A stretch of DNA of 64,000 bases from Bolinopsis microptera (taxonomy: Eukaryota > Ctenophora > Tentaculata > Lobata > Bolinopsidae). Below, piece after piece: positions 6,498 through 61,110 of the stretch. The notes beneath the pieces were generated by a model. It had not been told where the DNA came from and made no database searches. It saw nothing but the letters and a program-made list of their open reading frames with translations. The position numbers and the translations under genes were made by a program. Positions within the stretch are counted from its first letter, which is position 1, and each line of letters begins with the position of its first letter. The DNA is taken from positions 193,501 through 257,500 of the forward strand of contig NC_087072.1 of the NCBI RefSeq assembly GCF_026151205.1, in the 5' to 3' direction.

Positions 6498-6742
6498 AAT
6501 GATAAATGTTACTGAAAACAAACCAAAATCTCATAAAAAGATGTCGGATGACAAACGGAGCGTGGAGGCTCTGGGGATTCTGATGTGTACCGAGCTTGTA
6601 GCTGATAGATTGTATATCGTCTCGCTTTATATACAGTAAGATATATAGTAAGATATAAGTATAACGTTGCGTGCACAAATAATTTACAAAGTGAATGTTT
6701 TAAACTGAGTTTCCTTGGCACAAGTTGTATAAATGTAGAATT

Positions 6743-20396: not shown

Positions 20397-23300
20397 ATGG
20401 AAAGTTACCGTAAGATAGAGAAAGTGGGTGAGGGTACATACGGCGTAGTTTATAAAGGAGAACATAAACCAACAGGGACTACTGTCGCTCTTAAGAAAAT
20501 CAGGTAATAAACCAACAGGGACTACTGTCGCTCTTAAGAAAATCAGGTAATAAACCAACAGGGACTACTGTCGCTCTTAAGAAAATCAGGTAATAAACCA
20601 ACAGGGACTACTGTCGCTCTTAAGAAAATCAGGTAATAAACCAACAGGGACTACTGTCGCTCTTAAGAAAATCAGGTAATAAACCAACAGGGACTACTGT
20701 CGCTCTTAAGAAAATCAGGTAATAAACCAACAGGGACTACTGTCGCTCTTAAGAAAATCAGGTAATAAACCAACAGGGACTACTGTCGCTCTTAAGAAAA
20801 TCAGGTAATAAACCAACAGGGACTACTGTCGCTCTTAAGAAAATCAGGTAATAAACCAACAGGGACTACTGTCGCTCTTAAGAAAATCAGGTAACGATTA
20901 GTGATCAGCTGTATTTAGACACTAACCTTGTCTTTATACCGAATACTAGAGTAGCAGGTTGTAGTTACTACACTCTGCTACTACAGTGAAATGCAGATTG
21001 CAGATGTATTATATATTTATTGCTTTATTGTGTCGTTTTAGCCAGGTCTATGAATTGTAAGAACATTAATTTTAATATCCGTTTCACTGAAACATATTGT
21101 TTCCTAGGTTACAAGCTGATGATGAAGGTGTTCCTTCTACAGCTATACGAGAGATCTCAATGTTAAAGGAACTCAAACACTGCAACATTGTCGGGTACTA
21201 CTAACTAACTTACTACTGCTGTCTTTTACTGTACTCTAGTAGTGTAGTTCAGTGTCTTTTATACTTCCCAAGGTCTCTGCTACTGGAGTAAATTTGATTG
21301 TCATTACATTGTATCATCACTAGGCTATGTGGTAATTAGAGCATCCGCCTTCTGCGCAGAAGGTTCAGTCTAGGGAGTAAGAGCTAAGGATCAATTGGAA
21401 CTATGCGATCTCCTCGGTCGACTCAGCCGAATGATGGGAAACTTAATTGAGGGTTAAATGAGGAGGGGTACCTGTTAGACTGTAAACATAGTACAATTAC
21501 TATTACTATAATTCTAAGTGCCACTAGTTAAGGGAGCTAAGGAGGTCTAGCCCGGTGGAAAATGAGGAGTATATCTGTGCAGGTTACTAGAGGTAGTGAA
21601 CGAGAACAATGTGCTGTACCTCGTGTTCTGGTTACTAGGTTACTAGCTGGTTACTAGGTTACTAGCTGGTTACTACCTGGTTACTGTGCAGGTTACTGGA
21701 GGTAGTGAACGAGAACAATGTGCTGTACCTCGTGTTCTGGTTACTAGGTTACTAGCTGGTTACTAGGTTACTAGCTGGTTACTACCTGGTTACTGCGCAG
21801 GTTACTGGAGGTAGTGAACGAGAACAATGTGCTGTACCTCGTGTTCTGGTTACTAGGTTACTAGCTGGTTACTAGGTTACTAGCTGGTTACTACCTGGTT
21901 ACTGTGCAGGTTACTGGAGGTAGTGAACGAGAACAATGTGCTGTACCTCGTGTTCTGGTTACTAGGTTACTAGCTGGTTACTAGGTTACTAGCTGGTTAC
22001 TACCTGGTTACTGTGCAGGTTACTGGAGGTAGTGAACGAGAACAATGTGCTGTACCTCGTGTTCTGGTTACTAGGTTACTAGCTGGTTACTAGGTTACTA
22101 GCTGGTTACTACCTGGTTACTGTGCAGGTTACTGGAGGTAGTGAACGAGAACAATGTGCTGTACCTCGTGTTCTGGTTACTAGGTTACTAGCTGGTTACT
22201 AGGTTACTACCTGGTTACTACCTGGTTACTGTGCAGGTTACTGGAGGTAGTGAACGAGAACAATGTGCTGTACCTCGTGTTCGAGTTCCTGACCATGGAT
22301 CTCAAGAAGTATATAGACACCATCCCACGTGACCAACAGATGGACGCTAAACTTCTCAAGGTTTGTCTTTCAGTATCAACATCGAAACTGGGGGGGGGGG
22401 ACGCTAAGCTTCTCAAGGTTTGTCTTTCAGTATCAACATCTATACTGGGGCCGGGGCGGCGGAGGGGGTACTGTACTGTATACTATGACACTATATTTTA
22501 GTCTTAGTTAGAAAATGCAGTGGAATTTCTAAATCCTGATAGTTTCCCGTTTGTTGCAGGCATGTTTTGTGAATTCGTCCTATGATCCCAATTTTATTCT
22601 ACACAAACATTCGAATGCTCTTAGCAATTATAAATTACTTGCAGTTTTAGAGAAATTGAGGTTATATTTGACTTCCTAAATACAAGCTAAATATTTATTT
22701 GTATCCAGATTTTACGTGACAGCGATTAGTAAATCAGCCTCAATCGCAGAAAAACTCTCAAAACGAACAAACAGGAGAGGGGGGGAACAAACAGGGGGGG
22801 GGGGGGGGCGGGGGGAAGTACACCTCACCAGTCACCTGTAGCACGTGTAACACATAATCAAATACTGACTTTAACACATTTCAGAGTTACACGTATCAGA
22901 TACTACTGGCTATCAAGTACTGTCACAGTCACAGAGTGCTACACAGAGATCTCAAACCTCACAACCTGCTCATAGACAAGAAAGGAATCCTCAAAGTTGC
23001 TGATTTCGGTTTGGCTAGGGCGTTTGGTGTTCCAGTTAGAGCCTACACCCACGAGGTATTTATAGTAGTATTAGTATCTGGTCACTTGGTTACTTGGTTA
23101 CTAGCTGGTTACTTGGTTACTAGGTTATTAGCTGGTTACTTGGTTACTAGCTGGTTACTTGGTTACTAGCTGGTTACTTGGTTACTAGCTGGTTACTTGG
23201 TTACTAGCTGGTTACTAAGTTACTAGCTGATTTCTTGGTTACTAGCTGGTTACTAACTGGTTACTTGGTTACAAGCTGGTCACTTGGTTACTAGCTGGTT

Positions 23301-24418
23301 ACTTGGTTACTAGCTGATTTCTTGGTTACTAGCTGGTCACTTGGTTACTAGCTGGTTACTTGGTTACTAGCTGGTAAGTTGTAAGAAGGTTATTTCAGAT
23401 AGTGAGTAATGACATTGTGTTTCTCAGGTAGTGACAGGTAGTGAGTAATGACATTGTGTTTCTCAGGTAGTGACAGGTAGTAAGTAGTGACATTGTGTTT
23501 CTCAGGTAGTTACGTTGTGGTACAGATCCCCGGAGATATTGTTAGGACAGTTGAGGTACAGCTGTCCGGTCGATATGTGGAGTGTGGGATGTATATTCGG
23601 AGAGATGGCCAACAAACGGCCTCTTTTCCACGGAGACTCTGAAATCGACCAACTCTTCAGAATTTTCAGGTGACTGTTTGCTTATTTATTAGTTAGACTG
23701 TTTGCTTGATGTAGATCAAATATTAATATAAACGTATTTATTTTATATTTATAACCTGCTGTAATTTCTAGCTTACTAGCTGGTTACTAGGTTACTACCT
23801 GGTTACTAGGTTACTGTAATTTATAACCAACTGTAATATTCTCCCCCAGAACTAAGGGAACTCCTAACGAGTTGACCTGGCCAGGAGTCACTGAACTGCC
23901 CGACTACAAACCTACGTTCCCGAGCTGGCCCATTTCCGCCCTGAAGAACGCCTGTCCACGTCTGGACGAACAAGGACTGGACCTTCTCGAGGTATGTTCA
24001 TTGTTAGTTCTTGTAAGTAACTAAAGTTCATGTTATGTTGACTGTAAGTTATTGTAAGTAACAAATGTTCAGGCAATGTTCATTGTTAGTTATTGTAAGT
24101 AACAGATGTTCAGGCAATGTTCATTGTTAGTTATTGTAAGTAACTAAAGTTCATGTTATGTTGACTGTAAGTTATTGTAAGTAACAAATGTTCAGGCAAT
24201 GTTCATTGTTAGTTATTGTAAGTAACAAATGTTCAGGCAATGTTCATTGTTAGTTATTGTAAGTAACAAATGTTCAGGCAATGTTGGAGTACCAGCCAGC
24301 TAATAGGATTAGCGCTAAACGAGCTATAAACCACGCTTACTTCGACGACTTAGACAAGAGCCAGCTCCCAGACGAAGAGATATCTTACTACCGGTCTCAC
24401 CTTCAAGCAGAGCATTAG
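20397..24418 (+). CDS. Cyclin-dependent kinase, CDK1/CDK2 type (7 exons, 311 aa)
   Basis: Exons: 20397-20503, 21108-21194, 22237-22360, 22885-23055, 23506-23669, 23850-23991, 24278-24418; all junctions are GT-AG and phases join without a break. The product starts [20 protein letters not shown] (Gly loop with the inhibitory Thr-Tyr pair), then PSTAIREI (cyclin-binding helix), [21 protein letters not shown] (HRD loop, His where Gln is usual), [24 protein letters not shown] (activation-loop Thr) and [14 protein letters not shown]. It ends [19 protein letters not shown], a slightly longer tail than CDK1 or CDK2. It should phosphorylate Ser/Thr in the cell cycle when bound to cyclin. HGDSEIDQ is CDK1-like, [15 protein letters not shown] is CDK2-like, so the paralogue is open. 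Five of six introns contain tandem repeats that cross a splice junction. An in-frame ATG also lies at 20373. Confidence 0.95.
20466..20895 (+). repeat. 43-bp tandem array (10 copies) spanning the CDK exon 1 donor
   Basis: Each unit contains the last 38 nt of exon 1 followed by GTAAT, so the 5' splice site is present ten times. The first copy is the true junction. In the reading frame, retention of any unit gives ATC AGG TAA, an immediate stop. Confidence 0.97.
21320..21490 (+). mobile_element. tRNA-derived SINE (copy 1), in CDK intron 2
   Basis: The head, GTGGTAATTAGAGCATCCGCC, resembles a tRNA A-box half and GGTTCAGTCTAGG a degenerate B box. The body motif TCGGTCGACTCAGCCGAATG recurs at 48108-48310 (with C-to-T changes), defining a family. 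Confidence 0.75.
21583..22280 (+). repeat. 109-bp tandem array (6 full units) ending in CDK exon 3
   Basis: Seven copies of the acceptor plus about 45 nt of exon 3 start at 21583, 21692, 21801, 21910, 22019, 22128 and 22237; the last is the true exon. Between copies lies a GGTTACTAGCTGGTTACT-type minisatellite. Upstream copies leave the exon sequence after GTGTTC and soon meet a TAG. Confidence 0.97.
22343..22442 (+). repeat. 57-bp duplication spanning the CDK exon 3 donor
   Basis: GACGCTAAACTTCTCAAG followed by GTTTGTCTTTCAG occurs at 22343 and, with one change, again from 22400, separated by a poly-G run. The first is the functional exon end. Confidence 0.9.
22780..22817 (+). repeat. Poly-G tracts in CDK intron 3
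   Basis: Long runs of G, broken by AACAAACA and a single C. They are potential G-quadruplex formers and a likely place for assembly error. Confidence 0.8.
23080..23380 (+). repeat. GGTTACTAGCT minisatellite in CDK intron 4
   Basis: Some 12-15 variants of a 20-25-bp unit combining GGTTACTAGCT and GGTTACTT. The same motif builds the intron 2 array and a short tract in intron 5 (23770-23815), so one sequence has been amplified in three introns of this gene. Confidence 0.9.
23400..23515 (+). repeat. 39-bp array with three copies of the CDK exon 5 acceptor
   Basis: GACATTGTGTTTCTCAG followed by GTAGT ends at 23427, 23466 and 23505. The third is the true 3' splice site. Each copy is an AG|GT site. 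Confidence 0.95.
23992..24290 (+). repeat. 41-bp array filling CDK intron 6, five acceptor copies
   Basis: TGTTCAG followed by GCAATGTT recurs with CAG ending at 24072, 24113, 24195, 24236 and 24277; the last is used for exon 7. A variant unit occupies the double-length gap. The array starts directly behind the exon 6 donor. Confidence 0.95.
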
Positions 24419-25640
24419 TTACCATGGTTACTTGTTACTCAGTAACCAAACTCCAACCAGGACACTCAAGATAGCTTCTTTTTCAGACAATTTTTATCGT
24501 TTTCAAATTACATATTTTGTATTTTGGGCAGGCCTAATTTAGCGTGTACATCTTTTTGAAGTATCTATTTTAGTAGGGAGATACTCCTGTAGTAGATAGA
24601 ATACTGTAACTCTGAGAATTAGATCTTTCTCAAGTAATAGAACAACAGTTAAATGCTTTAAACTTAAGTTTGGGAATGATCTTCAAACTGACGAAGTTAT
24701 CACATATAATGACATATTACACGCATTGTTTTTGTAAATTGTATCTTACATAATATATTATTGTTATTTGTTATAAATATTGAATGTTACATGAAATTTA
24801 TAAAAGTTTTGTAACATAAAACGCACTACTACGAGTCTCGAAACAGTCAAGTAGAAGAGATGTGGTGAGAAAACAAATTAGCGAAATCGTGTGATTGATA
24901 TGTATTTTGTTCTTGGCTTGATAAGTGTCTCTTGTCATTGCGATATTAGTCCCAGACAAAACAATACAAGTTAACTTGATTCTGGAGTTCATGTAAGAGA
25001 ACAGCTCTACTTGGTGTCCTATTTGATACCGCATTTTTCTTTCAGCTCTACTTCATACTGCAGTAAACTATAAAGTTATAATTTACTTTGTTTATTCCCC
25101 ATCATGTATCTCAAGAAGTGGCATGTAATGACCGTTGAATGTACTTTGTTTTGCCAACGTACACTGCGGACGTTGCCTCTTTTTCGACTAGCAGGATTTT
25201 GCAAAATTTACGTCCTAATCGGTGTTTGGCGCTTTTTTTGAAATGCCTGAGTCCGAGCACGCGCGTTTCTGTGACGAATTTGTAGAATTCACGACAATCT
25301 CAAACTTGCCACCAAATTTCAACTGGGTAGGTCGTTGGTTGTAATAGTCTATGTGGACAGTGTAGTCTGGACATGTTCTTTTCAATTTGAGGATATCGTT
25401 AAATTTAGGTACTTGATTAGGTCTCGTCAATCATTCGAGTGGCCTGCACCAATGAACTCTACTCAAATCTTAAACAGAAAAAATATATTTCAAAGCTATT
25501 TTAATTTAAAATGACACACACTACACAGTGAGACAAACACCTAGTCCTAAAATATATATGGGTTAAAATATATATGGGTTAATCTCAAACTGCAAGTAAC
25601 TGAAACAAACAAATTCCAGAGTACATGGTCAAAATCATTT
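24419..25640. other. CDK 3' region and non-coding DNA
   Basis: AT-rich, no gene seen. A reverse copy of the 3' end of the LINE found at 10149-10205 lies at about 25397-25455. Confidence 0.6.
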
Positions 25641-25649
25641 ATACAAGGA

Positions 25650-25740
25650 AAGCAGTCTCCTTGATTTCTGTAGGGGACATGTTTTGGGGTTAAATAGGAA
25701 GTACTTGTCCCTAACAATCACAAAAAACCGAGTATTGACC
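25650..25740. repeat. Dispersed TGTAGGGGAC repeat, interrupted by a MITE
   Basis: Related sequence occurs at 31190-31310 and 31595-31720, each continuing through TTTCGACCTCTTGACCCACTC. Here the MITE at 25741-25968 splits it, and the right part resumes at 25969. Confidence 0.75.
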
Positions 25741-25968
25741 CAGTGGCGTAACGTTGCCTGTTGGCGCCCCCTCCCCTTTTGGTGCCCTCCCTAAAATTGA
25801 ACAAATTAGGTGATTTTAGAGAATACGCCGGTAAAATCTTTAAAAAAGTGTATATCTAGAGCAAAACGCGCAGTTTTGCTAGTACTTGAGTTAAGTTTTT
25901 GAAATTTTCCCACATTCAAACGACGATTTGACGCCCCCCGCACGGCGGGGCCCTTTGTTACGCCACTG
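25741..25968. mobile_element. 228-bp MITE with CAGTGGCGTAAC ends and 8-bp target duplication
   Basis: It begins CAGTGGCGTAACG and ends GTTACGCCACTG, a perfect 12-bp terminal inverted repeat. Flanks are TATTGACC and TTTCGACC; the uninterrupted site (31270s and 31690s) reads TTTCGACC/T, supporting an 8-bp duplication. End sequence and duplication length suggest a hAT-type non-autonomous element. Confidence 0.88.
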
Positions 25969-26219
25969 TTTCGACCTCTCGACCCGCTCATGCCACTCAC
26001 AGGGACCACGCCCATCCCAAAATTACTGGAATCCAGGCAGTAGCTCAACGTTGCCTGCTGGCGCCCGCTGAAAAAGCGCCCCTCCCTAAAATTTTGATAC
26101 ATGTTTCGTATCCAAATATCGAGTTGATGAATCCAGATTTTTGGAACATTTTTGGAACATTTTTGGAACATGTCCCAAAATTGTCCCAAAAGTGTCCCAT
26201 GCATTTATTTGCCCTAATA

Positions 26220-28500
26220 AGCTCTAAATAGTGCCAAAAATAATTGTAAATGATGGATATAGGTAAAAACTAGGCCTAAGAGCCATCAAAACTCAAATAA
26301 CATTACCCAGGTTCATGGAATGAACGAAAATGAACAAAAATTAATATTGTCCTAAAAATGCTCAGAACGGTTTAAAATTGGTCGGAAAGTGTTTATATTG
26401 GTCCTATGACCACTCAAACCAAGTTTGGGAATCACTGCATGTCTAGAACCGATGTTACCTATGTTCCAAAATGTTCCAATTTTGGGACAATAATCCTCCT
26501 GAGAATCCAGATTTTTGGAACATGGACACATCGAAGTATTGGCTGTATTTAAGTGCTGGGAAGCCTCAATTCGGTTTTCTAAGATGGATATAGGTAAAGA
26601 CTAGGCCTAAGAGCCATCAAAACTCAAATAACATTACCCAGGTTCATGGAATGAACGAAAATGAACAAAAATTAATATTGTCCTAAAAATGCTCAAAACG
26701 GTTTAAAATTGGTCGGAAAGTGTTTATATTGGTCCTATGACCACTCAAACCAAGTTTGGGAATCACTGTATGTCTAGAACCGATGTGACCTATGTTCCAA
26801 AATGTTCCAATTTTGGGACAATAATCCTCCTGAGAATCCAGATTTTTGGAACATGGGCACATCGAAGTATTGGCTGTATTTAAGTGCTGGGAAGCCTCAA
26901 TTCGGTTTCTAAGATGGATATAGGTAAAGACTAGGCCTAAGAGCCATCAAAACTCAAATAACATTACCCAGGTTCATGTAATGAACGAAAATGAACAAAA
27001 ATTAATATTGTCCTAAAAATGCTCAGAACGGTTTAAAATTGGTCGGAAAGTGTTTATATTGGTCCTAGGACCACCCAAAGCAAGTTTGGGAATCACTGCA
27101 TGTCTAGAACCGATGTTACCTATGTTCCAAAATGTTCCAATTTTGGGACAATAATCCTTCTGAGAATCCAGATTTTTGGAACATGGGCACATCGAAGTAT
27201 TGGCTGTATTTAAGTGCTGGGAAGCCTCAATTCGGTTTCTAAGATGGATATAGGTAAAAACTAGGCCTAAGAGCCATCAAAACTCAAATAACATTACCCA
27301 GGTTCATGGAATGAACGAAAATGAACAAAAATGAATATTGTCCTAAAAATGCTCAGAACGGTTTAAAATTGGTCGGAAAGTGTTTATATTGGTCCTATGA
27401 CCACTCAAACCAAGTTTGGGAATCACTGCATGTCTAGAACCGATGTGACCTATGTTCCAAAATGTTCCAATTTTGGGACAATAATCCTCCTGAGAATCCA
27501 GATTTTTGGAACATGGGCACATCGAAGTATTGGCTGTATTTAAGTGCTGGGAAGCCTCAAATCGGTTTTCTAAGATGGAAATAGGTAAAAACTAGGCCTA
27601 AGAGCCATCAAAACTCAAATAACATTACCCAGGTTCATGTAATGAACGAAAATGAACAAAAATGAATATTGTCCTAAAAATGCTCAGAACGGTTTAAAAT
27701 TGGTCGGAAAGTGTTTATATTGGTCCTATGACCACTCAAACCAAGTTTGGGAATCACTGCATGTCTAGAACCGATGTGACCTATGTTCCAAAATGTTCCA
27801 ATTTTGGGACAATAATCCTCCTGAGAATCCAGATTTTTGGAACATGGGCACATCGAAGTATTGGCTGTATTTAAGTGCTGGGAAGCCTCAATTCGGTTTT
27901 CTAGGATGGATATAGGTAAAAACTAGGCCTAAGAGCCATCAAAACTCAAATAACATTACCCAGGTTCATGTAATGAACGAAAATGAACAAAAATGAATAT
28001 TGTCCTAAAAATGCTCAGAACGGTTTAAAATTGGTCGGAAAGTGTTTATATTGGTCCTAGGACCACTCAAACCAAGTTTGGGAATCACTGCATGTTACCA
28101 ATGTTCCAAAATGTTCCAATTTTGGGACAATAATCCTCCTGAGAATCCAGATTTTTGGAACATGGGCACATCGAAGTATTGGCTGTATTTAAGTGCTGGG
28201 AAGCCTCAATTCGGTTTTCTAAGATGGATATAGGTAAAAACTAAGCCTAAGAGGCATCAAAACTCAAATAACATTACCCAGGTTCATGGAATGAACGAAA
28301 ATGAACAAAAAATGAATATTGTCCTAAAAATGCTCAGAACGGTTTAAAATTGGTCGGAAAGTTTGGGAATCACTTCATGTCTAGACCCGATGTTACCAAT
28401 GTTGTCACAATAATCCTCCTGAGCATCCAGATTTTTGGAACATGGGGACATCGAAGTGCTGGGAAGCCTCAATTCGGTTTTCTAAGATGGATATAAAAAA
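26220..28500 (+). repeat. Forward array of a 330-bp unit (about 7 copies)
   Basis: The marker CTAGGCCTAAGAGCC (or a close variant) recurs at 26270, 26601, 26931, 27261, 27591, 27922 and 28241. Copies are nearly identical except at the inner edge (28240-28500), where they decay. Confidence 0.95.
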
Positions 28501-28734
28501 ACTAGGCCTTATAGAGGAGCCATCAAAAGTCGAATAATATTACCCAAGTTTATGGAATGAAGAACGAACATGAAAATTTTCCTTAAAGCACTCAGAATGG
28601 TTAACAAATGGTGGCAAAGAGTCAATATTTTCGTCCAACAGGGTCTTAAAGTTGCATTCAGAATTGTGTACAATTAAACAGAAATTATTTATTGGGCAAA
28701 TATTTTTGTTTTAATAATCCTCCAATATTTTGAT

Positions 28735-30725
28735 ATAAATGCTTCCCAGCACTTAAATACAGCCAATACTTCGATGTGCCCATGTTCCAAAAATCAGGAT
28801 TCTCAGGAGGATTATTGTCCCAAAATTGGAACATTTTGGAACATAGGTAACATCGGTTCTAGACATGCAGTGATTCCCAAACTTGGTTTGAGTGGTCCTA
28901 GGACCAATATAAACACTTTCCGACCAATTTTAAACCGTTCTGAGCATTTTTAGGACAATATTCATTTTTGTTCATTTTCGTTCATTACATGAACCTGGGT
29001 AATGTTATTTGAGTTTTGATGGCTCTTAGGCCTAGTTTTTACCTATATCCATCTTAGAAAATTCGAATTGAGGCTTCCCAGCACTTAAATACAGCCAATA
29101 CTTCGATGTGCCCACGTTCCAAAAATCTGGATTCTCAGGAGGATTATTGTCCCAAAATTGGAACATTTTGGAACATAGGTAACATCGGTTCTAGACATGC
29201 AGTGATTCCCAAACTTGGTTTGAGTGGTCCCAGGACCAATATAAACACTTTCCGACCAATTTTAAACCGTTCTGAGCATTTTTAGGACAATATTCATTTT
29301 TTGTTCATTTTCGTTCATTCCATGAACCTGGGTAATGTTATTTGAGTTTTGATGCCTCTTAGGCTTAGTTTTTACCTATATCCATCTTAGAAAACCGAAT
29401 TGAGGCTTCCCAGCACTTAAATACAGCCAATACTTCGATGTGCCCATGTTCCAAAAATCTGGATTCTCAGGAGGATTATTGTCCCAAAATTGGAACATTT
29501 TGGAACATAGGTAACATCGGTTCTAGACATGCAGTGATTCCCAAACTTGGTTTGAGTGGTCCCAGGACCAATATAAACACTTTCCGACCAATTTTAAACC
29601 GTTCTGAGCATTTTTAGGACAATATTAATTTTTGTTCATTTTCGTTCATTCCATGAACCTGGGTAATGTTATTTGAGTTTTGATGGCTCTTAGGCCTAGT
29701 TTTTACCTATATCCATCTTAGAAAACCGAATTGAGGCTTCCCAGCACTTAAATACAGCCAATACTTCGATGTGCCCATGTTCCAAAAATCTGGATTCTCA
29801 GGAGGATTATTGTCCCAAAATTGGAACATTTTGGAACATAGGTCACATCGGTTCTAGACATGCAGTGATTCCCAAACTTGGTTTGAGTGGTCATAGGACC
29901 AATATAAACACTTTCCGACCAATTTTAAACCGTTCTGAGCATTTTTAGGACAATATTCATTTTTGTTCATTTTCGTTCATTCCATGAACCTGGGTAATGT
30001 TATTTGAGTTTTGATGGCTCTTAGGCCTAGTCTTTACCTATATCCATCTTAGAAACCGAATTGAGGCTTCCCAGCACTTAAATACAGCCAATACTTCGAT
30101 GTGCCCATGTTCCAAAAATCTGGATTCTCAGGAGGATTATTGTCCCAAAATTGGAACATTTTGGAACATAGGTAACATCGGTTCTAGACATGCAGTGATT
30201 CCCAAACTTGGTTTGAGTGGTCCCAGGACCAATATAAACACTTTCCGACCAATTTTAAACCGTTCTGAGCATTTTTAGGACAATATTCATTTTTGTTCAT
30301 TTTCGTTCATTCCATGAACCTGGGTAATGTTATTTGAGTTTTGATGGCTCTTAGGCCTAGTTTTTACCTATATCCATCTTAGAAAACCGAATTGAGGCTT
30401 CCCAGCACTTAAATACAGCCAATACTTCGATGTGTCCATGTTCCAAAAATCTGGATTCTCAGGAGGATTATTGTCCCAAAATTGGAACATTTTGGAACAT
30501 AGGTAACATCGGTTCTAGACATGCAGTGATTCCCAAACTTGGTTTGAGTGGTCCTAGGACCAATGTTAACACTTTCCGACCCATTTTAAACCATTCGGAG
30601 CACTTTGAGAAGAATGTTCATTTTCGTTCATTTCTGGTCATTCCATGGGTAATTTTATGCGACTTTTGATGGCTCCTAGGCATAGCTTACGGCTATATCC
30701 ATCTTAGAAAACCGAACTGAGCCTT
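28735..30725 (-). repeat. Inverted array of the same 330-bp unit (about 6 copies)
   Basis: The reverse complement of the same unit repeats about every 330 bp from 28735. The outermost copy (30560-30725) is diverged. With the forward array it forms a palindrome of about 2 kb per arm around a spacer of about 240 bp. Confidence 0.95.
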
Positions 30726-31189
30726 CCGAGCACTCAAATACGGCCAATACTGCGATGTACCCATGTTCCAAATTTATGGATTCATCTACTGCAAATATCA
30801 GAGATTTTGACCATGTATTCTTCGGCGGCGCGCGCTTCGCGCGCGAAAAGTGGCATGCAACGTATGTCAACTAAAATTGAACAAATTAGATGATTTTAGA
30901 GGATACGCCGGTAAAATCTCTAAAAAAAGTGTGTTTCTACATTCTAGAGCAAAACGCGCAGTTTTGCTAGTCACCGTAGTTAAGTTTTTCTTACTGGGCG
31001 GCGCTCAGCCTGTCATTCCGCCGAATATTTATGAACATAATCGATATTGTCCCACATTCAAACGACAATTTGGCGCCCTCCTAAAATTGCCCCCCCCCCC
31101 CCCCCCCCCTCCGCACAGCGGGGTCCTTCGTTACTAGTTACGCCACTGAATCCAGGTCAAATCAAGACTGAGAATCTTTACCCCTGTAG

Positions 31190-31720
31190 GGGATTTATGT
31201 TCCCGGGTATTAGGAACGTGTTTAGATGGTTTAATTAAGTTAGTACCTGTCCCAAACCATCAGAAAAACTGAGTTTCGACCTCTTGACCCACTCAGGCCA
31301 CGCCCAGGAATGAGGAACAATGCGCAACTATTCATAGGGGATTTGACCCAGGACCCCTGATTCACGATGTCAATCCTTCGCATCTCGCCGACTTACACGG
31401 CCCAGTAATCGCATCGCGCTACAAATTTGACCCTTGTAGCGCGATGCGTTACTGGGCCGCGCATCCAATAATGCTTTTGGACAATAGATCGGTGAGATGT
31501 TAAATCGGCGAACGAAATGCGCTACTTTGCCTCGCCGAGCTGCGAATAATTGATATCGTCAATTAAATTTGACCCTTGTCAATTAAATTTGACCCTATGT
31601 AGGGGATTTGTGTTCCCGGGTATTTGAACATGTCTTAGTGGTTAAATAGGAAGTAACTGTCCCAATTAACTTTGAAACTATGAGAAAAACCAAGTTTCGA
31701 CTTCTTGACCCACTCATGCC
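31190..31720. repeat. Two dispersed-repeat copies and a strong hairpin
   Basis: TAGGGGATTTGTGTTCCCGGG-type sequence occurs at 31190 and 31598. Between them a 25-bp inverted repeat (31399-31424 with 31434-31458, one bulged base) surrounds ATTTGACCC. Confidence 0.8.
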
Positions 31721-32160
31721 AAAAATTGCTAAAATATTGATTACGTAATATGTGAACGACCCCTCACCCCTAACAGAGGGGGAGGGGAGAAGGATGTATT
31801 GAGCGGGCAAAATGGGCAGAAATAAGTGAAAAGAGGGAGATGCTCATCATTCAGACTTGCTCGTGACACAAAATGAATGTTATTGACACTCTTCACATGG
31901 AAGCCGGACTTACCCCTACCTCTAAACATACCAAAGCTTAAGCTTTAATTTATGAATAGTTTCAGTCGCTCCAATAACAAAAGAACAGAACAATAAATCA
32001 AATGATCCTTTGTGTAAGACTGTAACTATGTTAATGTACACTATATTTATGTTGCTCTATCCATAGCCTTCTCGCTTGCAGTTGCGCGTCACGCAGTACG
32101 CCGACGCGTAGACTCATGGCTAGGTGAAATATTGATATACACATTAATATAAACTATAAC
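31721..32160. other. Non-coding DNA
   Basis: No gene seen. A diverged TTGCTCTA...CTTGCAG repeat copy lies at 32053-32095. Confidence 0.5.
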
Positions 32161-32164
32161 TAAA

Positions 32165-32425
32165 TAGAAACTATCACGACACTATCACGGAACTGTTTGT
32201 CATACGTTGTATGACCCGCCGCGCACGAAGTGTGCGGCTCCCCCTGTATCGTCAGGACGATAAAGTGACCATAGTGAAACGACCGTGGGGGTCGCAACGT
32301 GATACAAGGAACTGTCACGAAACTATCACGACTTTTTCACGACACTATCACTATCACGACTCTGTCACGTTCACGACACTATCACGTGACAGTGTCGTGA
32401 TAGAGTCTGTCAGTGTCGTGAACTC
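32165..32425. repeat. ACTATCACGA-type minisatellite folding into a palindrome, with MITE inside
   Basis: Irregular units of CACGACACTATCACG run on both sides of the MITE. Near 32375-32420 the motif turns over (CACGTGACAGTGTCGTGATAG), giving a foldback. Confidence 0.75.
32197..32307. mobile_element. 111-bp MITE with perfect 8-bp target duplication (copy 2)
   Basis: Same ends as the element at 12991-13071. It is flanked by GGAACTGT on both sides (32189-32196 and 32308-32315). It carries about 30 extra bases near its right half. Confidence 0.92.
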
Positions 32426-32991
32426 CATCCCACTCGCGGCACCCGACTTCCGCGGCACCCGACTATCATGAGCCAAAAATTCTAAACGTTTTTTTCCAAA
32501 ACTTTAAATTCGAATGCTTTTTTCCTCCCGAATTTCCGAATGATCACTTGATCTGAAATATTCCCCCCCCCCCCCCCCCCAAGTTTTCATGGAGTTTATT
32601 GAAACTCCTCATGTGGAGAGACTGAGTTAGAAAAATAACACTTTCTAAAGCTTAGTGTGATGGAGTTCAGCCGGTAGTTTGAAACTTAAAGCTGCTCTAT
32701 ATAATTCTAAAGTCGCACTTTTATAATTCTAAAGTCGCACTTTACAGGCAGAATCAATCTCCACATCATCAACTTGAGCCACATTGCACCAACAATGCAC
32801 CTCGTCCAGCACGTTCTCAATGATCAACAAGTCATGAGAACAGCACGTGACACAAAATGAATGTAATTGACACTCTTCAGTGAGGCTACACACATGGGAA
32901 GCCGGACTAACTAAACCCCTATCTCTCTAAGTCTAACTCTAAGTCTAATACCAAAGCATATTTATTTATTTTGCCCACGTATATTGATAAA

Positions 32992-35900
32992 ATGATCATG
33001 CAGTGGGTTGCACTTGTTTTTAGTCTCATTGCCTTAGCGGCATCTGCAAATGATTTTATTGGTAAGTCTCTCCAGTTTTTGAAATATGAACGATTTTTTA
33101 CAGCTGATTTGGAAAAGTTGAAAATCACGTCGATAAATTAGGTGTACTCCAGCAAACAGTTTAGTTTTAGTGTCTTTGAAGTAGTGTCTGAGCACGTGAA
33201 GCAATAGCTTCACGTTGCTAAGCAACTAACGCTGCCCCTCAGTTGCTAAACAACTAACCCCTCAGTTGGAAGCACGTACTCCTGTTTCACGGGTTTCCAA
33301 TCTGTTTCTACGGACGGTTGCAAATCACGAGTTGAAGATGCGGAGGGAAATATTGTACAGGAAGCTAGCGCTAATTCTGACACTGATTTCTGTGTCTCTC
33401 AACTGATCTATGGACAAGCAAAACAAGGTACTATGCTGTTTGATATTATCAAGTTTATTGTGCGTCATTTTTATATATTTTTATTTGACCAAAACCCATA
33501 ATCATGGGTAGAGTGGACCGCTGCCAGTGTCTCTCTTTCCCAAACAAAAGGAAATGATATTAATTTGATTGACCGTTCTCAAATGCAAAATGATACCGAG
33601 AATGAAATCGGTTGCTCGCTTTTCCCATTCATTCACGGCTTACAATCAATCACATGCTGTAAAAATTCCTTTGGGTTGCGTTCGGGTCGATATACTTAGT
33701 TTTTCGGGATAAGGGTGGTACTGGTAGTTAGTGAATTAGCTGAAGTTTATTGAATCTTTATTGCTGAGTACAGCTGCCTTCGGGTAGTTCTTCTTAATCT
33801 ATTACAATTGTAAATTAATGAAAAAAGCGAGCGACCGATTTCATTCTCGGTATCATTTTGCATTTGAGAACGGTCAATCAAATTAATATCATTTCCTTTT
33901 GTTTGGGAAAGAGAGACACTGGCAGCGGTCCACTCTACCCATGATTATGGGTTTTGGTCAAATATCATCTCTTTTTGATTATAATGTCAGGGTACTTTAT
34001 AAAGTCGAAAGATAAACTGATGTCTTCATTAATAAGGAGGAAGTTTCAACGATTTCGAAATTTTTCCTTTAAAACATTTCCTTGTGTTTAAGTAAGCATA
34101 TCGGTCTATCACTGACTGAACATAAAACATTATAATCATTCAAGTTGGCATTAAATTCATATATAATGACATTGAACTGTCGTGCAGAATTTGTTCGAAA
34201 TCACGAATGAGCAAAATTCTCACCGTTCGCACGTGCAAACTTTTAGCGGACGTTGCGTGCGCATCCAATACTGAATCGCCGTAAATTTTTGCATAGCGGT
34301 ATTTTATATATAGTCTGATAAGCGTGCACAGTTTCAAAAGATTTCAAATAGAACTTGGATCACAACGGGACTCCAAAGTTGATAAAAATCGTGAAAACAC
34401 CAATTTTCAGTGATTTTAGCAATTTTTAATCAATTTGTGCGAGTCCCCACGTGTGCAACTTTTTGATTTTTAACTTTAAAACCAGCCTAATGCACAATTT
34501 ATACCTATAGGAAGCAGAACTGAGCTCCACAACCCAAGAGATAGCCCAACACCAGAGAATACTAAATCGCAAAATTGACGTTTTTACAAAATAATTTTTC
34601 AAAAAAGCACTAACTTCAAAGGCAAATATCTTTATGAAGGAGTAAGATAAGAAAACTTTCCGGTAGATTTTCAGAATGCTTGAACAATTATCTAAGTGAA
34701 AATTTCCTCAGATGTTGAAAAAAATTGCTTTTAAATGGTGTTAAATCAATTTTAAAAGTTATTACTTTGTCGAAAATCAAGTTTTAAAAACGGTTAACTT
34801 GATGACGTCATCAAGGGGTGTTTATGACGTCAAATAATTTTTTTATACAATGTAAACTGAAGTGTAAACAATTATTTTCAAGACCTGTGGTCGGAAATGG
34901 CTGTATCTTTTGTACTTTTGAATCTATGGACACTTAAATTTAGGATACAATTGACTAAATTTGACTGTCAAAGCGTCTATCCCTGAATATGTATATATCA
35001 CGACAATCTGTTGTAAAACAGGGGTTCCAGGAAACCCACTTCCCGTCTAGACGCCCTGCAAAGTTTCACATCTCTAACTCAATTTTAACATGGTTTTTAA
35101 GGCACCTGAATATGGCAATTTTCGGTTTTTTACCGAATTTCGTATAACATGCTGGCGCGAATTTTGCGCAAATTTCTTAAAAAACCTCCACATAACTATT
35201 TCTTATTCCTGTCATCTTTGACATTGAATTAGAATGTTTTGAACTTAAATATACCTGCTGAACTACTTTCGATGAGTCTTAATGCCTGAAAAACAATAAA
35301 GGGGTATAATAGTAAAGGGGGTATAATAGTAAAGGGGGTAAATAGTAAAGGGGGTAAATAGTATTGTGAATATAAAAGGCACGGTCATGCTTGCCAGCAT
35401 TGTGATTTGTATAATTTATTGCCTCCAAATCCATTAACCTTAAGGCCTAATCCCGCTGATCTATTCCGATGAAAGTAGTTCCACAGTACCTCAACCGTAA
35501 TACATTTATAATTAAGCTGCGCTCTCTAATTGTTATAATCTTCTGCAGTAAAGCTCTTAAGCTGCGCTCTCTAATTGTTATAATCTTCTGCAGTAAAGCT
35601 CTTAAGCTGCGCTCTCTAATTGTTATAATCTTCTGCAGTAAAGCTCTTAAGCTGCGCTCTCTATTTGTTATAATCTTCTGCAGTAAAGCTATTAAGCTGC
35701 GCTCTCTAATTGTTATAATCTTCTGCAGTAAAGCTCTTAAGCTGCGCTCTCTAATTGTTATAATCTTCTGCAGTAAAGCTCTTAAGCTGCGCTCTCTAAT
35801 TGTTATAATCTTCTGCAGTAAAGCTCTTAAGCTGCGCTCTCTATTTGTTATAATCTTCTGCAGTAAAGCTATTAAGCTGCGCTCTCTAATTGTTATAATC

Positions 35901-38900
35901 TTCTGCAGTAAAGCTCTTAAGCTGCGCTCTCTAATTGTTATAATCTTCTGCAGTAAAGCTCTTAAGCTGCGCTCTCTAATTGTTATAATCTTCTGCAGTA
36001 AAGCTATTAAGCTGCGCTCTCTAATTGTTATCTTCTTCTGCAGTAAAGCTCTTAAGCTGCGCTCTCTAATTGTTATAATCTTCTGCAGTAAAGCTCTTAA
36101 GCTGCGCTCTCTAATTGTTATAATCTTCTGCAGTAAAGCTCTTAAGCTGCGCTCTCTAATTGTTATAATCTTCTGCAGTAAAGCTCTTAAGCTGCGCTCT
36201 CTAATTGTTATCTTCTTCTGCAGTAAAGCTCTTAAGCTGCGCTCTCTAATTGTTATAATCTTCTGCAGTAAAGCTCTTAAGCTGCGCTCTCTAATTGTTA
36301 TAATCTTCTGCAGTAAAGCTCTTAAGCTGCGCTCTCTAATTGTTATAATCTTCTGCAGTAAAGCTCTTAAGCTGCGCTCTCTAATTGTTATCTTCTGCAG
36401 TAAAGCTCTTAAGCTGCGCTCTCTAATTGTTATCTTCTTCTGCAGTAAAGCTCTTAAGCTGCGCTCTCTAATTGTTATCTTCTGCAGTAAAGCTCTTAAG
36501 CTGCGCTCTCTAATTGTTATCTTCTGCAGTAAAGCTCTTAAGCTGCGCTCTCTAATTGTTATCTTCTTCTGCAGTAAAGCTCTTAAGCTGCGCTCTCTAA
36601 TTGTTATAATCTTCTGCAGTAAAGCTCTTAAGCTGCGCTCTCTAATTGTTATAATCTTCTGCAGTAAAGCTCTTAAGCTGCGCTCTCTAATTGTTATAAT
36701 CTTCTGCAGTAAAGCTCTTAAGCTGCGCTCTCTAATTGTTATAATCTTCTGCAGTAAAGCTCTTAAGCTGCGCTCTCTAATTGTTATAATCTTCTGCAGT
36801 AAAGCTCTTAAGCTGCGCTCTCTATTTGTTATAATCTTCTGCAGTAAAGCTATTAAGCTGCGCTCTCTAATTGTTATAATCTTCTGCAGTAAAGCTCTTA
36901 AGCTGCGCTCTCTAATTGTTATAATCTTCTGCAGTAAAGCTCTTAAGCTGCGCTCTCTAATTGTTATAATCTTCTGCAGTAAAGCTCTTAAGCTGCGCTC
37001 TCTATTTGTTATAATCTTCTGCAGTAAAGCTATTAAGCTGCGCTCTCTAATTGTTATAATCTTCTGCAGTAAAGCTCTTAAGCTGCGCTCTCTAATTGTT
37101 ATAATCTTCTGCAGTAAAGCTCTTAAGCTGCGCTCTCTAATTGTTATAATCTTCTGCAGTAAAGCTCTTAAGCTGCGCTCTCTAATTGTTATAATCTTCT
37201 GCAGTAAAGCTCTTAAGCTGCGCTCTCTAATTGTTATCTTCTGCAGTAAAGCTCTTAAGCTGCGCTCTCTAATTGTTATCTTCTTCTGCAGGATCCTTCG
37301 GAAAGTCTAAGAACTACGCTGTGTCCGCTACTTTCAAGATGGTTGAAATGGGAAAGTACTCCACAAGTTACGGTTATTTGGGGATTGCCTTCAATATGAT
37401 GGACTCCAATAACTACGATATTGCTTACGTCAGGTTACAACAATAACAGTAATTAGGTTGCTTAAGTCAGGTTTTTATCGATAATTTGATATTTTCCGAG
37501 CTCTTTTATTGACATGATATCTAAATTCTAATAATTTTAACCAAAACCCAAAATTGGTTGGAGTGAACCGTGGCTCCTTTTTCCAAACAAAAAAGAAACG
37601 ATATCAATTTATAAATTACCGTTCTCAAATGAAAAATGATACCGAGAATACTTATAATATATAATTATATATATATAATACTTATATGTATGATTGTAAT
37701 CATTTGTGGGACTGAGCTTTAACAGATTGAAATGAAATGAAAAATAAAACTGTAAAAGAAAGTTTTGCAACATGATAGTCAGGCTTCTATTAATAGCCAT
37801 TATTCTGACATTAGTTGCTAAAAAGCGTGATCAGACTCTGAAGATCAAATCAGCCCCAAATGGTAGTGATGTTAGTGGAGATAGGAGAGAAGTTAGAAAG
37901 ATTCAGAATAGCATTTCTAAGAGACTTGTGCAAATAAATAACATGAAGGCTGACGCTCTAGCGGAAGAAATAAATAACACTGACGATGCTAGAAAGATGT
38001 TTGAAGCTTCAAGATCTTTAGCTGGAATAAGAAAGTCGGGTAACATAGTGGTCAATGATATCAACAACAACCCTATTGGTACTGATTTAGGGAAAGCAAA
38101 CACAGCGAAATCTTTCTTCGAAAAACAACTAACAGAAGGAGTTGAAGCTGGCTTGCAACCTTTTACCTGCGATCCAAAACCACTTGATAACCCGATCACA
38201 CCAGTTGAAGTTAAACTTGCTGCAAGTAAACTCAAATCAAACCGTGCCAGTGGTCCAGATAATCTCCAGAATGAGCTGATAAAGTACGCCCATCCAATCA
38301 CTTTTGAGAAGTATGCTGAGGCAATTAACGAGTCATTTAGTGGGAACAAATACATAAGTTCGATAGGACAAGGTATTGTGACTCCTCTACAGAAGCCCGG
38401 TAAACCTAAGGGTCCCCTCACAAGCCTTAGACCACTTACACTGTTAAACGGATCGAGGAAGATGCTCACTCAAATTGCCTTAAAACGGGTTGAGAGTAGA
38501 ATTGACAACTACACCATGCCATGGCAGAGTGCTTACAAGAGAGGTAGGAGCTGCTCTGACATTGTGTGGGCTCAGAGAATGCTCATATCTGTTGTAATGA
38601 GGAAGAAATGGACATTTAGCAAAATGGGTATTGATATGAGTAGAGCTTTTGATACCGTGAAAAGGGACACTATCATCAATGTTTTGAAAGATGCTGGTTG
38701 TTCGGAGGACGACATTCGTTTAGTTCAATACCTTCTATCGAATACTCTCCTTAGAGTTCGTGTTAACTCCTCACTGTCGGAAGAGTTTGAAAGTTTACTC
38801 GGAGCCTTTCAAGGTGACAGTTTATCTGGAAAGCTATTCACACTTATTCTTGCAGCAGCCTTACACCACCTCAGAGCTGTATCTGGGAGACCAAACCCAC

Positions 38901-39960
38901 CAGTATCAGAACTAGGTTTTCCAACTGAGTGGGAATATTCAGACGATTGTGACTTTGCTGACGAGGACATCGAGAAACTGAGAATTTTCCTTCCTACAGT
39001 GAAGGAGATTCTCAAAGACTGGAACCTCCAAGTAAATGAAAGTAAAACTGAATTCAGTACCTTCTACCTAGCGACAAAATCTGATAAAGATACAAACGGT
39101 CAGCCATTAGCTAATAACGAACCATGGAGAAGTAACAAGTCACTAGGTTCCTTACTGTGTACTGAGAAGTACATTCAAAGAAGAAGAATCCTAGCTGAGA
39201 TTGCTTTTAAGAACTTTGAAAAAGTTTGGCTGTCTGGTAAGAAAATATCCCTTGAAAGAAAGCTGAGGTTATACGATGCTCAAGTTGTATCTGTATTGAT
39301 TTACAACTCAAATAGTTGGAGTCCTAAGAAAGCAACCATGGAGAAAATGGACACACTCCATCGTAGACACCTCAGGTCCATTTTAAACATCAAATGGCCT
39401 AAAGGTATGATAAGCAACAAAGCATTGTATGAAAGGTGCAAAGTTGAAAAGTTATCCAAGCGTATTGAACACCAGCGGTGGAAAATGTTTGGACACATTC
39501 TCAGGAGTATGGAGAACACCCCAGCCCAAACGGCTCTCTCATTTGCTATTGAATCAGATAATTTATTCATTGGAAGATTGGGGAGACCTAGAATGAACTT
39601 GTTATCGGTTTTAAGAAGTGATTTAAATAGTAGAAGTTTGCAAATGGACAACTTGTATGAATTGAACGAAATTAAAGATATAGCTGCATGCAACAGATGT
39701 TGGGAAAATCTTTTTCAAGGGTACAGTTTACCGCATTAAGGTATTTTTAAGAATCATTTTTGTCGGTAAGATCCTGTTTTATAATAATAATAATAATTCT
39801 GACAATGAAATAGACTTTGTTTCCAGGCCCCACGCAAAGGACCATTGTTGGGAGTTGGGATATGTAGAGGACGGTATGCTCTTTGGGAGAGGGTTTGGAA
39901 CTTGTAATGACAAGGTTATGAAGGAGTTCAACCTGGCCATCAAGATAGAGAATGGAAGAG
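32992..39960 (+). CDS. Secreted lectin-like (concanavalin/LamG-fold) protein, 4 exons seen, 3' end not found
   Basis: Exons: 32992-33061, 33266-33427, 37292-37433, 39827-39960, joined in consistent phases with GT-AG borders. Exon 1 encodes a signal peptide (MIMQWVALVFSLIALAASA). Exon 2 holds YSCFTGFQSVSTDGCKSR and several cysteines. Exon 3 reads YLGIAFNMMDSNNYDIAYV, and exon 4 continues RPHAKDHCWELGYVEDG and CNDKVMKEFNLAIKIENG. The order NNYDxxYVRPH...CWELGYV resembles extracellular jelly-roll (LamG or DUF1080-like) domains. This is inference from pattern, so the fold is probable and the ligand unknown. Introns 2 and 3 host a foldback MITE, a 40-copy array and a LINE. A possible further small exon (CAG-GTGAGC donor near 40133) could not be confirmed. 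Confidence 0.72.
33206..33265 (+). repeat. Duplicated splice acceptor before lectin-like exon 2
   Basis: CAACTAACGCTGCCCCTCAG and CAACTAACCCCTCAG follow each other, each after TTGCTAA. Both include a branch-point-like CTAAC and end in CAG (33242 and 33265). Confidence 0.85.
33484..33962. mobile_element. Foldback MITE (479 bp) with about 140-bp inverted arms
   Basis: The arms start TTTGACCAAAACCCATAATC and are near-perfect reverse complements. Flanking TA on both sides is compatible with a TA target duplication, as in Tc1/mariner elements. Relatives are at 10222-10445 (one arm) and 37538-37660 (diverged arm). It lies in intron 2 of the lectin-like gene. Confidence 0.88.
33963..35460. other. 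Intron sequence, non-coding
   Basis: AT-rich intron 2 interior without gene signals. A short minisatellite based on GTATAATAGTAAAGGGG lies at 35298-35365. Confidence 0.6.
35516..37291 (+). repeat. 45-bp tandem array, 40 copies, ending at the lectin-like exon 3 acceptor
   Basis: Unit: AAGCTGCGCTCTCTAATTG followed by TTATAATCTTCTGCAG and TAAAGCTCTT. Each unit has a branch-point-like CTAAT, a pyrimidine tract and CAG, that is, a complete 3' splice site. The 40th copy runs into exon 3 at 37291/37292. Most units are 45 bp, four are 42 bp. A four-unit (180-bp) pattern marked by TATTTG and CTATTAAG variants repeats in places. The open frame through it is a by-product of period 45. Confidence 0.97.
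37538..37660 (+). mobile_element. Diverged arm of the foldback MITE family
   Basis: TTAACCAAAACCCAAAATTGG through ATGATACCGAGAATAC parallels the arm of the element at 33484 with many changes. Confidence 0.65.
37811..39795 (+). mobile_element. 5'-truncated LINE with intact reverse transcriptase frame, 9-bp target duplication
   Basis: ATTCTGACA flanks the insertion (37802-37810 and 39796-39804). The frame runs to the stop at 39739 (about 643 aa from the element border) and ends in a TAA microsatellite tail. Motifs: RPLTLLNGSRKML, MGIDMSRAFDTVKRD, LGAFQGDSLSGKLFTLI and EYSDDCDFAD, then a C-terminal RRHLRSILNIKWP and RWKMFGHILR. The catalytic box is YSDD rather than the common YADD. The endonuclease is missing. 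The first 13 residues of the open frame before 37811 are host intron. It lies in intron 3 of the lectin-like gene, in sense orientation. The clade was not assigned. Confidence 0.88.
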
Positions 39961-40060
39961 GTACAGCATTTATTAGCATTTATTAGTATTTATTAGCATT
40001 TATTAGCATTTATTAGCATTTATTAGCATTAATTAGCATTTATTAGCATTTATTATAATA
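39961..40060 (+). repeat. 10-bp AGCATTTATT microsatellite after exon 4 donor
   Basis: About nine tandem units begin directly after the donor of lectin-like exon 4. Unlike the other arrays it does not copy the splice site. Confidence 0.9.
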
Positions 40061-53248: not shown

Positions 53249-55231
53249 ATGATGGAAACCCCCACTGACACTCAAGAAAAGTGTGAGAAACCTCAACCTG
53301 TTGCAGACCAGACTTCATCCACTACGGTTCCCCATCAGGATACACCCACCACTTCCTCAGCTTCAGTCATTGAAAATATTGACGAAATGCTTAGAGATGT
53401 CGATAAACTAATTCATTCAGAAAATCAGGACTCAGAAGAAGACAAAAATGTCAGCAGTCTCCTTAGTTTCTTCTCAAATAGATCTGCTCCCCTCGACACC
53501 TATCTGTTAACCCACGCACAGAACCTACGCTCAGAGGTAGACTTAATCAAGATTAACATTTGCAGTATCCTGAAACTTGAAGTAAACAAGTTTGCGATCA
53601 TTACACCAGCCATGATCAAGAGTTGTTCATCCCTGAACAAACTAACTTTAGCAGAAGGTCTCCTATCCCTGCTAGGTCTTGCTGAAAGTGTTTGTGCTGT
53701 AGTAAGTGGACAGAGATGTGAAAACGAAGTCAAGTCCTCTTCCTACTTGTCAGCTCCCTGCAGCTTGAGCATGCCAATGGTTCACACTACCTCGGATGGT
53801 AGCTCTCTACAAGATTCTCTAGAAGCCATTCAGAAGTCCATCAAGAACCTTAAAGACAACGATAGCCATCTCAGAACTCTCGACTCCATCAACAGCAAGC
53901 TTGCTGAGCTCAAACTTGACATAAACTGTTTTAAAAACAGTAGGTCATCAAATGTTTCCACCCCTGATCTGCCCATGCCTCCTTTTAATATAGGGTCACC
54001 CGCACCATGTGAAATGGACCAAGAACAGCTTCTCCTAGATGCACAGAAGCATGCAAGTGTAGACGACCCTAAGTCCAAGCACATTCTGTCGTATGTCCCA
54101 GAATTTGTAGATGAAAAATTGAACTCTGAGCTTTCAGTTTTCTTAGACCAACAGAAGGAAGCCTTTGATAGTAACTCCGAAAATGGACATGGGGTTGTGA
54201 GCTTTGGCGAACCTTATCAGTACCCGGGGGCTAAAGCTGAAAAACCGACATCAACAGAATTTCCTGAGGTTCTTAATAAGCTTGTCTCCAAGATAAAGGA
54301 AGAATGTCCTAGTTCAACAATCAATCAGTGCTTGATAAATCGGTACACTGATGGGAACAGCTTTCTTCCTAAGCACTCTGATAACGAGCAATCACTGGTC
54401 CATGATAGTTCCATATTTACAGTATCCTTAGGTGGTGATTGCTCTGTAAAATTCACAAAAAAGGACCAGCTTGAAGGAGAGGTTGTAGAGACAATAGAGG
54501 GACGTAGTCTCTATGTCATGAGCAAACAGTCCCAGTTTCTTTGGGACCACCGAATTGATAAAAGCACAGAAAAGAGGGACTTAAGATACAGTATTACCTT
54601 CCGCTACGTAAGCAGGAGCATCAATGCGACCTTGATTGTCGGTGATTCAAACACCCGGTTCCTCAAATTTGGGGCTGGAAAAGGAACATTTGGACACAAG
54701 CTGCCTGGGAAAAGAATCGAATGTTTCACAATAGATCAGTTAGACCCTGTTCTTTGTGTTGGATACAAGAACGTTGTAGTACACTGTGGTATAAATAATA
54801 TCAAGAGGGGAGGGGGTGATGTTAAACATTGGGCTAATGAGCTGACGAAGAAGCTCAAGAATATTTGTGATATGTGTCCATATTCTAAAGTTATTGTCTC
54901 ACCCATCCTTCCAACTAGGTCCTCCTGGCTGAATGACAGAGCCATGGAGTTTAATAGTTTATTATTTGGGTACTGTAATACTAATACTAGAATAGGCACT
55001 TTAGATTTTGATAATTTTGTTGATGAGGAGGGTCTACTGGACAAGCAGTTTTGTAGATACAAGAAGCCGGATGACCCAATCCACCTGGGGTCAAGCGGTA
55101 TCTTTAAACTCTCCCGGGCAATTGCACATAAGATCCTAGGTAGCCCCGTTGATGGGAGGTTGTTCAGTGATGTTACCAAGGCCCAAAAAAGATTTTCCCC
55201 ACGTTCTCGTAGATCCGTAGTTATGTCATGA
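53249..55231 (+). CDS. LINE ORF1: AlkB-like dioxygenase domain fused to SGNH esterase domain (660 aa)
   Basis: The start is the ATG at 53249, the first in a frame that is open further upstream. Residues 1-300 are acidic and Ser-rich with a likely helical stretch. Residues about 310-452 fit an AlkB-type Fe(II)/2-oxoglutarate dioxygenase: NRYTDGNSFLPKHSDNE gives the HxD, FLWDHRI the second His, and RYSITFR the RxxxxxR signature. Residues about 460-640 are SGNH hydrolase-like: LIVGDSNTR (Ser), HCGINNIKRGGG (Asn block) and DDPIHLGSSG (Asp-His), so the full triad is kept. AlkB enzymes remove alkyl groups from nucleic acids; a role on the element's RNA or cDNA is my inference. ORF2 starts inside the stop codon. 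Confidence 0.88.
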   Translation: MMETPTDTQEKCEKPQPVADQTSSTTVPHQDTPTTSSASVIENIDEMLRDVDKLIHSENQDSEEDKNVSSLLSFFSNRSAPLDTYLLTHAQNLRSEVDLIKINICSILKLEVNKFAIITPAMIKSCSSLNKLTLAEGLLSLLGLAESVCAVVSGQRCENEVKSSSYLSAPCSLSMPMVHTTSDGSSLQDSLEAIQKSIKNLKDNDSHLRTLDSINSKLAELKLDINCFKNSRSSNVSTPDLPMPPFNIGSPAPCEMDQEQLLLDAQKHASVDDPKSKHILSYVPEFVDEKLNSELSVFLDQQKEAFDSNSENGHGVVSFGEPYQYPGAKAEKPTSTEFPEVLNKLVSKIKEECPSSTINQCLINRYTDGNSFLPKHSDNEQSLVHDSSIFTVSLGGDCSVKFTKKDQLEGEVVETIEGRSLYVMSKQSQFLWDHRIDKSTEKRDLRYSITFRYVSRSINATLIVGDSNTRFLKFGAGKGTFGHKLPGKRIECFTIDQLDPVLCVGYKNVVVHCGINNIKRGGGDVKHWANELTKKLKNICDMCPYSKVIVSPILPTRSSWLNDRAMEFNSLLFGYCNTNTRIGTLDFDNFVDEEGLLDKQFCRYKKPDDPIHLGSSGIFKLSRAIAHKILGSPVDGRLFSDVTKAQKRFSPRSRRSVVMS

Positions 55232-59115: not shown

Positions 59116-61110
<1,995 letters not shown>

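Follow-up and report, generated by a model that had tools for sequence, protein, structure and literature searches.

The 64-kb window analysed here (C1:193501-257500 of the Bolinopsis microptera assembly, which comprises 264.65 Mb in 232 contigs) carries a CDK1-like gene and a lectin-like gene in which splice donors and acceptors are repeated by tandem arrays; unless a contig is named, positions are those of the window. The CDK1-like gene (20397-24418, forward strand) has seven coding exons, at 20397-20503, 21108-21194, 22237-22360, 22885-23055, 23506-23669, 23850-23991 and 24278-24418, and encodes 311 residues. Splice-aware alignment with human CDK1 reproduced the exon junctions, and we take the intron positions to be common to human CDK1 and CDK2. 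Among the matches listed, the five closest full-length CDK1 relatives are 93-83% identical, while identity to the proteins of B. floridae and Limulus is 70-71%. The CDK1 proteins of the five relatives are 310-312 residues long and have no inserts at the array-bearing junctions.

Eight arrays lie in the six introns of the CDK1-like gene, and five of them, all read on the forward strand, span a junction, affecting the donors of exons 1 and 3 and the acceptors of exons 3, 5 and 7. The intron 1 array, 10.0 copies of a 43-bp unit (20464-20894), spans the exon 1 donor with 40 exon bases plus GTA (self-matches 388/388). Exon 3 is affected on both sides: its acceptor is spanned from intron 2 by 6.5 copies of a 109-bp unit that contains a GGTTACTAG minisatellite (21575-22282; 46 exon bases; self-matches 595/599), and its donor from intron 3 by 1.9 copies of a 57-bp unit (22342-22450; 19 exon bases; 49/52). 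The array at the exon 5 acceptor, in intron 4, has 2.9 copies of 39 bp (23396-23510; five exon bases; 70/72). Intron 6 is array almost throughout, with 7.15 copies of 41 bp (23993-24285; self-matches 222/252) that span the exon 7 acceptor with eight exon bases and keep the acceptor AG in five copies. In each case the exon boundary and its splice signal lie inside the array, together with 5-46 exon bases, and the units, with periods of 39-109 bp, are of minisatellite size, as is the 45-bp unit of the lectin-like gene. The initial annotation had described these five introns with the same periods and with 10, 7, 2, 3 and 5 copies, numbers that agree with ours once the last is read as the AG-keeping copies of intron 6. 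Its view that a junction stands at the edge of every array needs correction, as three further CDK1-like arrays touch none: a 19-bp unit, TGGTTACTTGGTTACTAGC, repeated 15.2 times in intron 4 (23087-23375, forward strand), a 19-bp array of 2.5 copies in intron 5 (23768-23815, forward strand) and one at 22765-22805. The minisatellite motif CTGGTTACTWGGTTACTAG, found at 21628-23817 of the window, has 305 exact occurrences in the genome, and among the matches listed its places on C1, C2, C3 and C4 form dispersed clusters.

Four exons were found for the lectin-like gene (32992-39960, forward strand), at 32992-33061, 33266-33427, 37292-37433 and 39827-39960. The frame is continuous across them and reaches no stop, so the gene probably continues downstream of 39960; no Pfam family matched the protein at E 0.01. 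Its acceptors are copied, all on the forward strand, twice before exon 2 (23-28 bp, 33214-33268, with about three exon bases common to the copies) and 40 times before exon 3, where a 45-bp unit is repeated 39.8 times (35512-37291) and each copy carries the acceptor TTCTGCAG. Both counts, and approximately both periods, had been given in the initial annotation. The exon 3 array stops exactly at the AG and takes in zero exon bases, and is therefore not junction-spanning in the strict sense. A further array on the same strand, 10 bp repeated 9.1 times (39965-40055), begins 4 nt inside the exon 4 donor.

Copy number could be followed between recent lectin paralogues. A DNA search with exon 3 identified a paralogue, L030, 346 kb away and in inverted orientation, whose identity to the window gene is 99% in exon 3 and 90-100% over the longer blocks of the alignment. 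L030 has a single copy of the exon 3 acceptor unit, against 40 in the window, and the intron that precedes the exon measures 199 bp against 3864 bp; in the window intron, the 40-copy array accounts for about 1.8 kb, and roughly 1.9 kb is other sequence that L030 lacks. The exon 2 acceptor is repeated 9.6 times in L030 (28 bp) and twice in the window, the 10-bp array on the donor side of exon 4 has 11.1 against 9.1 copies, and a duplication of the exon 4 acceptor that includes six exon bases is seen in L030 and not in the window gene. The 45-bp window unit is the 37-bp L030 sequence with eight extra bases; additions of this sort between copies would be in keeping with end-joining repair as the source of the duplication. 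In a further paralogue, L037 (C1:12004100-12005200), the intron before exon 4 holds, upstream of its acceptor, an old and degenerate duplicate of the beginning of the exon that follows.

These comparisons back the suggestion of the initial annotation that introns grow by tandem duplication, and they bear on its companion suggestion of intron gain. In that case the introns themselves would have been born from tandem duplication of exon pieces that contain AG/GT. Such an origin is published (PMC2891723 and PMC2812944, in the sections available), and CDK1-like intron 6, being nearly all array, would suit it. The intron that holds the 40 lectin copies, however, is 199 bp long and has one unit in L030, and in four more paralogues (L034-L037) it measures 129-167 bp and has no array, so that it is present array-free in all five. 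The CDK1-like introns, for their part, presumably stand where those of human CDK1 and CDK2 do. We regard intron gain as very improbable. An assembly artefact is just as improbable: the identity of the ten 43-bp copies in CDK1-like intron 1 might raise the suspicion, but internal variants recur along the 40-copy lectin array, arrays occur at many loci on contigs of up to 26 Mb, and array copy numbers agree between the enolase gene and the contig of its second haplotype in the introns covered by both. This last comparison concerns one allelic pair, which has no junction-spanning array. C188, a contig of 15.5 kb that differs from the enolase locus by 0.73% substitutions, looks like its other haplotype, and other arrays might likewise be comparable between alleles.

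Short introns of B. microptera often contain young tandem repeats, some of which copy one splice site many times. The median intron is 220 bp, or 197 bp with arrays stripped (n=45 introns), and arrays make up 0-41% of 19 preset 10-kb stretches and 14.6% of the window; stretch L009, half of whose letters are N, was excluded from this share. Open frames in the preset stretches were ranked by codon use, with no family search, and the stretches were kept out of the junction test described below. A GTTAC/GTAAC core motif was present in 11 of 99 array units from the 19 stretches; over 500 shuffles the count averaged 6.0 and went as high as 13, and the motif was dropped as weak.

Other genes were sought irrespective of repeats, each by a conserved protein or motif; these were enolase, ATP synthase beta, EEF2, MAT2A and three AHCY-like genes. 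The PCNA protein match in the genome is a single piece and contributed no intron, and for human COX1 the genome has no match. One AHCY-like gene has a 13-bp unit repeated 7 times across a donor and a 35-bp array of 17 copies that copies an acceptor, and another has a 57-bp array of 2.1 copies across an acceptor with about 40 exon bases. The enolase (GTTA)70 repeat begins at the first intron base without crossing the splice site, and a MAT2A array stops 5 nt before an acceptor, again without crossing. No array was present at the score limit in the counted introns of ATP synthase beta and EEF2. As the initial annotation had said, the Rac-like gene of the window (59997-61107, forward strand; four exons), which served as a control, has no arrays in its three introns of 164-197 bp.

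The comparison with random placement called for by the initial annotation was carried out on the scale of 66 introns from 17 gene segments, related lectin paralogues included, with 31 arrays, the null being uniform placement of one unit in array-stripped introns. The final EEF2 intron, which is doubtful, was left out of the counts, as were L041 (a haplotig), L032 and L033 (loci identical to L034 and L035), L038, L039 and L049, presumably GUF1-like, and also the upstream acceptor of L046, whose intron is incomplete though its array spans the junction. Two-copy repeats below a Tandem Repeats Finder score of 50 were also omitted, both at junctions (lectin exon 2 of the window; exon 4 of L030 and L037) and inside introns.

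The repeats themselves are far above chance, but their junction crossing is not. Uniform placement predicts 5.39 spanning arrays, and five of the 31 do span (P 0.67); for the CDK1-like gene alone the figures are five of eight against 3.06 (P = 0.11), and without it one of 23 against 2.82. CDK1-like intron 6 was entered as a 123-bp row that falls short of the exon; the 41-bp row would make a sixth spanning array, its expected value being already 0.98. An array-independent count points the same way. Only 7 of 132 junction-centred 20-mers have a copy within 1 kb, against 22.0 expected from intron interiors, and six of the seven belong to the CDK1-like gene (one of them, at the intron 1 acceptor, duplicated but in no array), which leaves 1 of 120 outside it against 14.7. 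RNA-like copies in the introns of EEF2 push the interior figure up, so a second comparison left this gene out (59 introns); in it 5.9% of junction 20-mers were duplicated against 15.4% of interior ones (confidence interval of the difference -0.158 to -0.037). Repeat coverage falls from 13-23% in introns to 8% at junctions and 1.5-4% in exons, with no peak at the junction.

We therefore favour, with a probability of roughly three in four, the reading that the arrays are ordinary minisatellite growth in short introns, of the kind known as mirages in amphioxus, and that they include junctions about as often as random placement would; because the introns are short, chance overlap with junctions is frequent. 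Tandem duplications would start in short introns and take in a junction at about the random-placement rate, and the arrays would then expand and contract by slippage or unequal exchange. Copies of the junction would be tolerated since each splice site keeps an intact copy next to its exon. Support comes from the copy-number differences between the window gene and L030 (40 against 1, 2 against about 10, and 9 against 11) together with the exon 4 duplication of L030, and from the junction copies in AHCY-like genes outside the window. The mutational mechanism, the cell's use of the copy nearest the exon and weak selection against junction copies are our inferences.

Several observations pull the other way. 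Arrays that cross a junction or end within 6 nt of one number 11 of 31 against 6.47 expected (P 0.025), and six of 11 against 2.93 in the genes of the window (P 0.019), the gene set in which the finding arose. With a limit of 16 nt, which is post hoc in that it was picked after an offset of 15 had been seen, the count is 16 of 31 against 8.25 (P 0.0006). The lectin exon 3 array and the 35-bp AHCY-like array break at or beside the AG, and the single copy in L030 could be a contraction. Such placement would be expected if tandem duplication started preferentially at splice sites, for example through breakage or slippage at the ends of introns while they are transcribed, with the result that arrays cluster there even when the junction is uncrossed. 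The 16-nt excess recurs in genes not chosen for repeats (8 of 16 against 3.37, P 0.004) and among arrays beyond the window (10 of 20, with 4.83 expected, P 0.005), and the enolase repeat at the first intron base and the MAT2A array near its acceptor would fit as well. MAT2A, which joined the sample when the limit already stood, gives two of four against 0.91 (P 0.21), and ATP synthase beta and EEF2, also added later, have no array; at 6 nt the figures are 4 of 16 against 2.44 in genes not chosen for repeats (P 0.21) and 6 of 23 against 3.61 without the CDK1-like gene (P 0.12). As neither crossing nor coverage is raised at the junction, a preferential start at splice sites seems unlikely, if less so than the other alternatives, and the same doubt attaches to its corollary that, in this lineage, one breakpoint of the founding duplication lies no more than about 16 nt from a splice site, donors and acceptors being fragile spots from which introns grow longer. 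The focus of repair or slippage on splice sites that the initial annotation had proposed is thus not shown by the crossing counts, while the post hoc excess of arrays that end just inside introns remains.

We next consider what the inner copies would do if used. A premature stop is predicted from 60 of the 61 inner splice-site copies considered, a set that excludes the two-copy acceptor of lectin exon 2. All nine inner donors of CDK1-like intron 1 lead to a stop, each after 36 codons, as do all inner acceptors of intron 2 (6/6) and intron 4 (2/2), those of intron 6 that have the AG (4/4) and those before lectin exon 3 (39/39). The second donor of CDK1-like exon 3 is the sole in-frame case and would add 19 residues. 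Inner copies that bear donors and acceptors, and stops that could feed mRNA decay, might suggest arrays of decoy sites selected to regulate the splicing or expression of the CDK1-like and lectin-like genes, as the initial annotation had envisaged. Unselected copies would also tend to give premature stops, however, paralogues differ in copy number (1 against 40), unrelated genes have arrays too and junction copies are rarer than copies of intron interiors; selection for decoys therefore appears most improbable.

The initial annotation knew of no named system of this kind, but junction-spanning minisatellites with units of 10-160 bp have been described as mirages in the amphioxus genes Adh3, BflGb6 and BflGb9 (globins) and PGBD5 (PMC3087553 and PMC3902484, here and below as far as the available text of these papers goes). 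As in B. microptera, tandem copies of tens of base pairs span donors and acceptors, many with AG or GT signals. In amphioxus their copy number is unstable; here it differs between recent paralogues, and it is equal in the one allelic pair, enolase. The amphioxus globin haplotypes have 6 and 3 copies, whereas up to 40 copies, and five arrays in one gene, are seen here. Mirages were described in cephalochordates, and the CDK1-like protein, at the identity to B. floridae given above, belongs to another lineage; the difference in setting is taxonomic, not structural. The available portion of PMC2812944 reports internal tandem repeats of human segmental duplications that likewise include minisatellites at exon-intron boundaries with copy numbers differing between recent paralogues, but these are said to give alternative or new introns, while the inner copies here are mostly predicted to give stops. 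Novel introns by tandem duplication, as treated in the accessible part of PMC2891723, also involve tandem copies with splice signals; the lectin intron, in contrast, is older than its array.

A limited literature search, whose negative outcome does not prove absence, turned up no group other than cephalochordates for which mirages are reported by that name. The Adh3 mirages are reportedly the work of Canestro 2002, as cited in PMC3087553, and Zhuo 2007 is said to be a source for novel introns by tandem duplication. The arrays described here are genuine splice-site repeats of the mirage type and extend a little-known amphioxus phenomenon to a different lineage; repetition of this type is plausible in any genome with short introns and many minisatellites. 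The placement counts supply a quantitative null, in which short introns and abundant minisatellites yield repeated splice sites by chance and tolerance, and the 40 acceptor copies before one exon are a natural experiment on how the spliceosome picks one of many almost identical sites.

Elsewhere in the window, a 331-bp unit forms two arrays (26252-28362, 6.4 copies, and 28741-30783, 6.2 copies), which seem to run in opposite directions on either side of a short spacer. Open reading frames at 37748-39736, 55213-58629 and 3483-6530 comprise two reverse transcriptases (RVT_1) and one GIY-YIG, which from their appearance we take to be Penelope-like. The reverse-transcriptase frame at 37748-39736 sits in intron 3 of the lectin-like gene and is absent from L030. 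Outside the window, introns 1, 2, 3, 4, 6 and 7 of EEF2 (L050, C2:18791500-18797000; six of the seven counted) share an element of 120-170 bp at 84-93% identity. It has an H/ACA-like layout, with sub-threshold Rfam matches to plasmodium_snoR27 and SNORA35 in intron 1 only, and it is probably a family of intronic snoRNAs (small nucleolar RNAs).

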